From Chloroflexota bacterium (GTDB lineage: Bacteria; Chloroflexota; UBA5177): DNA of 41,134 nucleotides. A program made the translations under genes and the position numbers. Location: positions 1 through 41,134 of the forward strand of contig JANWJD010000002.1 in NCBI GenBank assembly GCA_025449555.1, written 5' to 3'. The notes under the pieces are model-generated. The model was not told the origin of the DNA, did no database searches, and saw nothing but the letters and a program-made list of their open reading frames with translations. Shown here in pieces: positions 18,372 through 19,758 of this stretch (positions are counted from its first letter, which is position 1; every line of letters starts with the position of its first letter).

Positions 18372-19295
18372 TTAGTCTCGCACGCCGGCGCGGGTCTCCT
18401 GCCGAACCGAAAATTCCTGTAAGAGGAGCCGAAACGCCAGCGCCGTCTTGGTCAGTCGCTTGTCTTTGTGATGCAGGAGCAAGAGCCGTCGTTGCATCTT
18501 GAGAGTCGGCACTTCCGCCGCGCAGAGCCTTCCGCTCTCCATTTCCGCTTCGACACTGTATCGCGATGCAATCGAGATACCCAGGTTCGCGGCGACCGCC
18601 TGCTTGATGGCCTCTGTACTGCCCAATTGCATGGCGTCTGCCGGCTCGATGCCGAGCTGACCCAAACGTTCCTCCATCAATTCCTGCGTACCCGAACCCG
18701 GCTCCCGCACCAGAAAGGTCTCGCGGCGCAACTCTCCGGGGTAGACGACTCCTTCTCGAGCGAAACGATGAGCGGGCGAGACGATGACCACCAGTTCATC
18801 GTCGAGATATGGCTCGGCCACCAGGAGAGGTTCCGCCACGGGCCCGGCAACCAGTCCGAAGTCAAGTTCATTGTGCACGAGCCGTTCGATCGTGTGCCGC
18901 TTATTGCCGACTCGCAGGGAAACCTTGATACCGGGATGCCGATTGCGAAACTCACCCAGTACCTCGGGCAAAAGGTAGATCCCAATGGTGGCGCTCGCTC
19001 CCACTACCAGTAACCCGCTTTGCAATCCTTTCAGTTCTTCCACGGCCACGCGGGCCTCCTCCTCCATCAGCGCAGCCCGATGAACGTATCCCAACAGGGT
19101 GCGACCTGCATCTGTGAGGTAGAGCCGGCGGCCCACACGTTCTAACAACGGCGTGCCGTACTCACGTTCCAGTGCCTTTACGTGAAAGGTCACGCCCGGC
19201 TGGCTGATGGAGAGCTCTTCCGCGGCGCGGGAAAAGCTCATGTGATTCGCGACGGCCTGAAAAACGCGGACCCGTTGCTCTAACATCAGTTCCAT
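18372..19295 (-). CDS. LysR family transcriptional regulator
   Basis: A 307-residue LysR regulator. The N-terminal winged helix (about 5-62) shows FQAVANHMSFSRAAEELSISQPGVTFHVKALE. A linker helix and the effector domain follow (LVVGASATIGIYLLPEVLGEFRNRHP, then GLVAGPVAEPLL), a form close to CysB/CbbR-type regulators. The C-terminal end is somewhat long and basic. The ATG at 19295 lies 4 bp after TATCCT; the ATG at 19286 lies 9 bp after TATAAA. It is divergent from the small gene at 19525, the classical LysR/target arrangement, with a dyad in between. The inducer is unknown. Confidence 0.93.
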   Translation of the reverse strand: MELMLEQRVRVFQAVANHMSFSRAAEELSISQPGVTFHVKALEREYGTPLLERVGRRLYLTDAGRTLLGYVHRAALMEEEARVAVEELKGLQSGLLVVGASATIGIYLLPEVLGEFRNRHPGIKVSLRVGNKRHTIERLVHNELDFGLVAGPVAEPLLVAEPYLDDELVVIVSPAHRFAREGVVYPGELRRETFLVREPGSGTQELMEERLGQLGIEPADAMQLGSTEAIKQAVAANLGISIASRYSVEAEMESGRLCAAEVPTLKMQRRLLLLHHKDKRLTKTALAFRLLLQEFSVRQETRAGVRD

Positions 19296-19360
19296 TTATA
19301 GGATAGGCAAGCAAGTTTGTGTTTGATTATAGAAGAACGCGAAGTCGTTGGGCTGCTTTT

Positions 19361-19374
19361 GCGCTACGAAGCGC
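19361..19374. promoter_or_regulatory. dyad GCGCT-ACGA-AGCGC, candidate operator
   Basis: A 14-bp inverted repeat in the 229-bp gap between the LysR gene and the divergent small gene. LysR proteins bind dyads in such gaps, but this one lacks the T-N11-A shape, so the assignment is tentative. Confidence 0.35.
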
Positions 19375-19463
19375 TTGCCACTTCCATGAAATCGGGCAAC
19401 AGGCACGCTGGGGACTTGCAGCAATTCATCAGTAGGATTTTCCCTGTGGATAAAAAGCCCATA

Positions 19464-19493
19464 TTGGACTTATAGGTGAGATGCCTCTAGTGT
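19464..19493 (+). promoter_or_regulatory. candidate promoter TTGGAC-18-TAGTGT of the small gene
   Basis: TTGGAC at 19464-19469 and TAGTGT at 19488-19493 are 18 bp apart. Transcription would begin near 19500, placing AGGAGG 20 bases into the leader. Confidence 0.5.
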
Positions 19494-19524
19494 AGAAGTG
19501 TGAGGCGTTGCTTCAAATCAGGAG

Positions 19525-19758
19525 GTGGTTGCCATCGCAGTCGCACAGGTAGAGACCGTCATCGACCGTTTGATGAAAGACCAGTCTTTCCGCCAGAAGT
19601 ACTGTCATGATCCTGACGGCACGCTGGCCGGTTATTTGACACCTGATGAGATTCACGCGATCAAGTCTGGTGATGGATGGTTCCTCGGCCAATTTGGCCG
19701 TTCGCCGCGCTGGCACGAGTGGGCTGCCGGCTTATGTGGGCTCGATCCCGGACCCTAG
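19525..19758 (+). CDS. small protein resembling RiPP-precursor leader families
   Basis: A 77-codon frame, GTG at 19525 to TAG at 19756-19758. Residues about 9-48 follow the pattern VExVIxRLxxDxxFRxxYxxDPxxxLxxYLTxxE, seen in small proteins annotated as Franean1_4349-type or Nif11/NHLP-like peptide precursors. The C-terminal part is rich in Gly, Trp and aromatic residues and contains one Cys. AGGAGG at 19520-19525 overlaps the GTG, so it cannot serve that codon; the codon with ideal 8-bp spacing is ATC at 19534, a rare start. An in-frame TGA at 19501 limits other choices. It has its own promoter and is divergent from the LysR gene. No modifying enzyme is nearby, so a peptide-product role is unproven. 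Confidence 0.65.
   Translation: MVAIAVAQVETVIDRLMKDQSFRQKYCHDPDGTLAGYLTPDEIHAIKSGDGWFLGQFGRSPRWHEWAAGLCGLDPGP

Follow-up and report, generated by a model that had tools for sequence, protein, structure and literature searches.

A small protein gene in the window, the whole 41,134-nucleotide stretch of Chloroflexota DNA analysed here, appears to begin not with a canonical start but with ATC. The non-canonical start, at 19534–19536 on the plus strand, is well supported by comparison of the homologous start regions. Considering the locus as a whole, we think it probable that it comprises a LysR-type regulator and its divergent small target, the latter having an AUC start and a helical product that may bind a partner.

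The small gene and its divergent regulator

A sequence-only reading of the window had described a 77-codon gene facing a LysR gene, and this arrangement is confirmed. The open reading frame spans 19525–19758 (+), 77 codons counted from a GTG, and the LysR-type gene lies divergently at 18372–19295 (−). We reinterpret the small gene as 19534–19758 (+), running for 74 codons from ATC to a TAG stop at 19756–19758; its predicted product is ~8.2 kDa, with six predicted helices. The earlier reading would have been undermined if no genome held a related protein. Orthologs that are 47–53% identical occur in five of the five other genomes of the family or order that were compared (four in the same family and a fifth in the order, with E values of 4e-21 to 4e-17 in a whole-genome search). 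When the seven genomes of the class were searched with a profile, the gene was confirmed in six and not found in the seventh. Judged from its conservation, the gene is real, beyond chance, because it has orthologs in five genomes, conserved synteny, and a reading-frame pN/pS of 0.42.

The small gene is divergent from the same LysR in all six genomes (G000, that of the window, and G001–G005). The order LysR, small gene, acyltransferase (on the opposite strand), and BNR-repeat (sialidase-like) gene is kept in G001, G002, and G004, and G005 retains the first three. In G003, the BNR-repeat gene remains with the small gene and LysR is on another contig, so that the pair is hidden there because of an assembly break. 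The LysR contig ends in ~118 bases that recur at the beginning of the contig with the small gene; this overlap between C70 and C160 (L029 1–118 and the end of L099) falls at the LysR start. The closest named relative is in QHBP01000436.1, from an Antarctic Chloroflexi metagenome bin. A search of genome contigs returned one ortholog, on the same contig as that of G002; a 20-residue match in Litoreibacter from that search is regarded as chance. Viral contigs contained no relatives, and Rfam gave no match.

The regulator (PF03466, E = 1.5e-54; PF00126, E = 5e-21) is nearest to the YeiE/CbbR group, and its matches in the PDB are CbbR (5y2v) and YeiE. Its orthologs, 63–83% identical, are found in the six genomes only; the seventh genome of the class is without one, its best match being 37% identical. 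Between the two genes, the only strongly conserved element is ATATT(G/T)GACTTAT, which in the window is the ATA-N7-TAT dyad ATATTGGACTTAT at 19461–19473 (+), also written ATATTKGACTTAT, and which is kept in six of six orthologous loci. It overlaps a −35 hexamer, TGGACT, at 19465–19470. Each of the six genomes contains a single exact match, invariably at the small-gene locus, and the seventh, which lacks the small gene, contains none. The LysR ortholog, the exact motif, and the small gene hence go together: six genomes have all three, and the seventh has none of them. A conserved divergent arrangement and a conserved dyad near the −35 element of the target, the features by which a LysR regulator and a divergent target are recognized, are both found here. 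The element at 19461–19473 is likely the LysR site, as is consistent with a regulator that has just one operator, although conservation as operator and conservation as promoter are inseparable by sequence because the element contains the −35 hexamer.

The small gene was also said to have its own promoter. In all six genomes, a TAnnnT element lies 17 bp after the TGGACT/TTGACT core (in the window, the −10-like TAGTGT at 19488–19493 (+)), so the claim stands as far as the −35-like element, spacer, and TAnnnT are concerned, but a sigma-70 consensus scan found no promoter reaching threshold. The site originally suggested for LysR fared worse. The 14-bp dyad GCGCT-ACGA-AGCGC is indeed present at 19361–19374, but 63% of shuffled versions of the intergenic region contain one or more such dyads (mean 1.21), and it is absent from five of five orthologous loci; we rejected it, the conserved element being a different one.

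The nearest characterized regulators of this LysR, YeiE and CbbR, bear on an alternative that we consider unlikely. Here, the locus would be a sulfite- or redox-stress module, with the LysR as a YeiE-like sensor and the small protein, which has a conserved Cys, serving the cytochrome b561 and the sulfite-oxidase-like molybdoenzyme encoded nearby. YeiE mediates sulfite resistance (PMC12880088), and the genes after LysR in the window include members of PF00174 and PF01292; both are near it in G004, as is PF00174 in G001. In G004, moreover, the interval from LysR to the sulfite-oxidase-like gene includes a redoxin (AhpC-TSA) gene and a mycothiol-S-transferase/DinB-like gene (L026 4596–6048). Such a module is compatible with an AUC start. 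However, the LysR scores 216.3 bits against the YeiE model NF040889, for which the cut-off is 480; the 20-kb stretches of G005 and G002 have no PF00174 or PF01292 gene close to LysR; the motif of 19461–19473 was not found upstream of the enzyme genes; and one of the two conserved cysteines of the small protein is replaced by serine in G002. Apart from this question, the redoxin and mycothiol-S-transferase-like genes of G004 hint at a thiol or sulfur theme.

A helical domain of the LigA/Os1348/SonA type

As judged by profile comparison, the small protein is a homolog of the Os1348 family, formally outside the NF038399 model of that family (NHLP clan), against which it scores 37.4 bits (E = 2e-9) with a curated cut-off of 40 bits. 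Against PF14407 (Franean1_4349/Frankia_peptide), it scores 27.6 bits (E = 4e-6), below the gathering score of 48 bits. Profile searches of the PDB matched SonA/LigA-domain and Os1348 chains (E = 2e-4 to 9e-4). AlphaFold, run on two rows, returned six helices at low confidence (pLDDT about 67 (67.5)), and a Foldseek search with this low-confidence model gave nothing significant, with Os1348, DesB, and SonA ranking highest. By these comparisons, the product is a small helical protein of the LigA/Os1348/SonA type. Its invariant residues in the alignment include R12, L13, D16, F19, R20, Y23, DPD 26–28, Y34, K44, and GD 46–47, together with L67, C68, and P72 in the C-terminal tail, LCGLDPGP (19732–19755 (+); LCGPxPGP in relatives). 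The C-terminal half had been called Gly/Trp-rich, which describes this one sequence but is not conserved; only the LCGPxPGP at its end is.

Homologous domains are scattered across the phylum, in 47 of 400 genomes, and many are stand-alone small proteins. A second conserved Os1348-type small gene (LSLRALIDVTTKLMTDGEFRNLLV...CGLEEWTARWVSALR) lies on contig C179 of G000 (L030), where an ABC1-kinase gene is upstream of it, and has relatives in G001–G004. Other proteins, of a leader-plus-large-tail layout, combine an Os1348-like N-terminal domain with long Gly/Ser/Asp-rich, partly repetitive tails, ~200–540 residues (L052, L053, and L055–L058, mostly of family f31), and several copies of these are present in some genomes.

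A RiPP precursor is expected to have a modifying enzyme, a cleavage site, and usually a variable core. The leader-like pattern noticed in the N-terminal half is present (VETVIDRL, FRQKY, DPDGTL), and the domain does resemble a leader at the sub-cut-off scores given above. A precursor in which this LigA/NHLP-like N terminus is the leader and the C-terminal LCGPxPGP the modified core nevertheless seems quite unlikely. In its favor are the sub-threshold matches to the Os1348, NHLP, and Frankia_peptide models, the presence among the best PDB profile matches of the borosin precursor SonA, whose leader is helical (PDB 7ltc; PMC8429565), and a short conserved Cys-containing tail that could serve as a fixed core. 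But no modifying enzyme, protease, or exporter was identified among the annotated neighbors of the orthologs, and the product contains no GG-type cleavage motif. The tail, rather than being variable, is conserved. A search for modifying enzymes elsewhere, which had been proposed as a check, found neither YcaO nor MNIO in the seven genomes of the class, some of which are incomplete; the genome-wide search covered these two enzyme classes. The other proposed check, an HMM search against precursor families, yielded matches below curated cut-offs only. With respect to precursors of the NHLP, TOMM, and MNIO kinds, the protein has no modifying enzyme identified within these searches and is without the cleavage motif or variable core, and it is probably not a peptide-antibiotic precursor.

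Proposed initiation at ATC 19534

As the sequence-only reading had observed, AGGAGG (19520–19525) overlaps the GTG at 19525–19527, its last G being the first base of that codon, and ATC 19534–19536 begins at a favorable distance, 8 nt, after it. The GTG lies within an extended Shine-Dalgarno sequence, AGGAGGTG (19520–19527 (+)), and GGAGG precedes the start position by 6–9 nt in six of six orthologs (8, 6, 7, 8, 9, and 8 nt in G000–G005, in order). Comparison of the start regions strongly backs the suggested ATC start. First, the codon homologous to 19534 is ATC in G000–G003, ATG in G004, and GTG in G005. Second, the twelve codons preceding this position have a pN/pS of 1.17, with no protein-level constraint, and codons 2–12 counted from ATC are under constraint, with a pN/pS of 0.36. 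Third, codon 2 is alanine in all six genomes and is encoded variously by GCA, GCT, GCC, and GCG. Finally, in G001 the open frame contains no ATG, GTG, or TTG upstream of ATC. In infC, the control for non-canonical initiation, all six genomes begin with ATC or ATA. For the neighboring LysR and acyltransferase genes, canonical start candidates are available close to the ends of their alignments, and the Os1348-type paralogs of these genomes likewise offer ATG, GTG, or TTG candidates. The small gene shows a hallmark of the infC/sigR class, a conserved codon other than AUG, GUG, or UUG at optimal distance from a strong Shine-Dalgarno sequence, and in the cell its translation would initiate at AUC.

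Several considerations temper this reading. ATC makes up 170 of the 231 isoleucine codons (74%) in ten genes of the window, so four ATC codons in a row would be unremarkable for an ordinary isoleucine, and Ile, Met, and Val are conservative replacements for one another, which counts against an ATC start. Because only six genomes were compared, the ATC may reflect one or two events; a tree of infC, made to count gains of ATC, was unresolved. In G003, there is an in-frame ATG 27 nt upstream of ATC. GGAGG-N6-9-ATC occurs 11 times in the window, common enough that comparison, and not the spacing by itself, has to carry the argument. An RNA structure hiding the start is not indicated, the predicted stability being no greater than that of shuffles.

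Translation of an ordinary 77-residue protein from GTG 19525, with ATC as an internal isoleucine codon, is very unlikely: although this GTG is the sole canonical in-frame start upstream in the window and is likewise in frame in G003 and G004, it sits inside the Shine-Dalgarno sequence, and three genomes (G001, G002, and G005) either lack it or have it out of frame. No protein selection is seen in the codons that separate it from ATC, and exactly where the window has ATC, G004 has ATG and G005 has GTG. The upstream frame is not kept, because the spacing after GGAGG shifts by single bases from genome to genome (6–9 nt). The GTG is probably not used as a start.

A proposed circuit and its relation to known systems

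In the circuit that we favor, LysR is predicted to bind a single dedicated site overlapping the −35 element of its target and, together with an inducer, would turn the small gene on. The mRNA would present a strong extended Shine-Dalgarno sequence, with initiation at AUC 19534 and not at the GTG within it, as the comparison supports. IF3 would discriminate against the AUC, as it does for infC and sigR, so that the level of the protein would be low and sensitive to IF3. The product would begin Met-Ala-Val, its methionine probably removed before the invariant Ala2, and would consist solely of a LigA/Os1348-type helical domain and the conserved LCGPxPGP tail. Binding of a protein partner is common to LigA, SonA, and NHLP leaders (PMC8429565, PMC12455567), and by this analogy the protein may most likely act as a protein-binding adaptor or subunit and not as an antibiotic precursor. 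Partner binding is our best guess at its function, and a dose-limited, LysR-controlled protein-binding domain is the favored description of the product; the adaptor function, the binding by LysR, and the control by IF3 are what we infer. A more specific version is tentative: that this is a second Chloroflexi gene, besides infC, in which selection has kept an AUC start, through which IF3 meters a LysR-controlled LigA-type adaptor in a dedicated single-target circuit, where one regulator acts at the sole operator of its genome on one small protein with weak initiation.

To our knowledge, very few bacterial genes other than infC are documented to have AUU, AUC, or GUC starts, and gene finders ignore such codons. 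A conserved AUC start before an overlooked small protein suggests that there are more such genes, which could be found by comparing start regions. With one operator site per genome, the LysR pair is also a tidy, testable circuit.

Among known systems, Os1348 of Pseudomonas sp. Os17 (PDB 6lk7; PMC7726476) is likewise a small single domain, matched by the profile at residues 4–56; its acetyltransferase/efflux cluster is absent downstream here, the regulator is different, and the LCGPxPGP tail is the small protein's own. SonA/LigA (PDB 7ltc, PMC8429565; profile E = 2e-4) offers a similar helical, partner-binding LigA-like domain of 70–80 residues, but an N-methyltransferase was not identified beside any ortholog, and the tail differs. 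The regulator resembles YeiE and CbbR along its full length, but it falls below both equivalog cut-offs, and its apparent target is a small protein rather than yeiH or the Rubisco genes.

For the start codon, the textbook precedent is infC, the classic IF3-controlled gene with a non-canonical start (ATT in Escherichia coli, ATC in Streptomyces), through which IF3 autoregulates. Starts of the AUC kind are rare, and in the known cases the protein is kept scarce. In the six genomes of the order, infC itself starts with ATC (G000, G001, and G004) or ATA (G002, G003, and G005), preceded by a GGAGG or GAGG Shine-Dalgarno sequence, and automatic annotation therefore probably mis-starts it. The small gene shares with infC an AUN start after a strong Shine-Dalgarno sequence, but infC encodes the autoregulating IF3, and the small gene encodes an unrelated small protein that IF3 would, by analogy, repress. 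Streptomyces sigR (PMC5472188), in which a GTG was annotated inside AGGAGGTG and the real start is an IF3-repressed GTC downstream, differs in its codon (GTC, not ATC), in its product (a sigma factor whose anti-sigma factor is encoded in the same operon), and in that its start is proven experimentally, whereas that of the small gene is supported by comparison only. The two nevertheless have the same architecture: AGGAGGTG containing a GTG that invites mis-annotation, and just downstream of it a non-canonical start that is conserved among relatives (PMC5472188).
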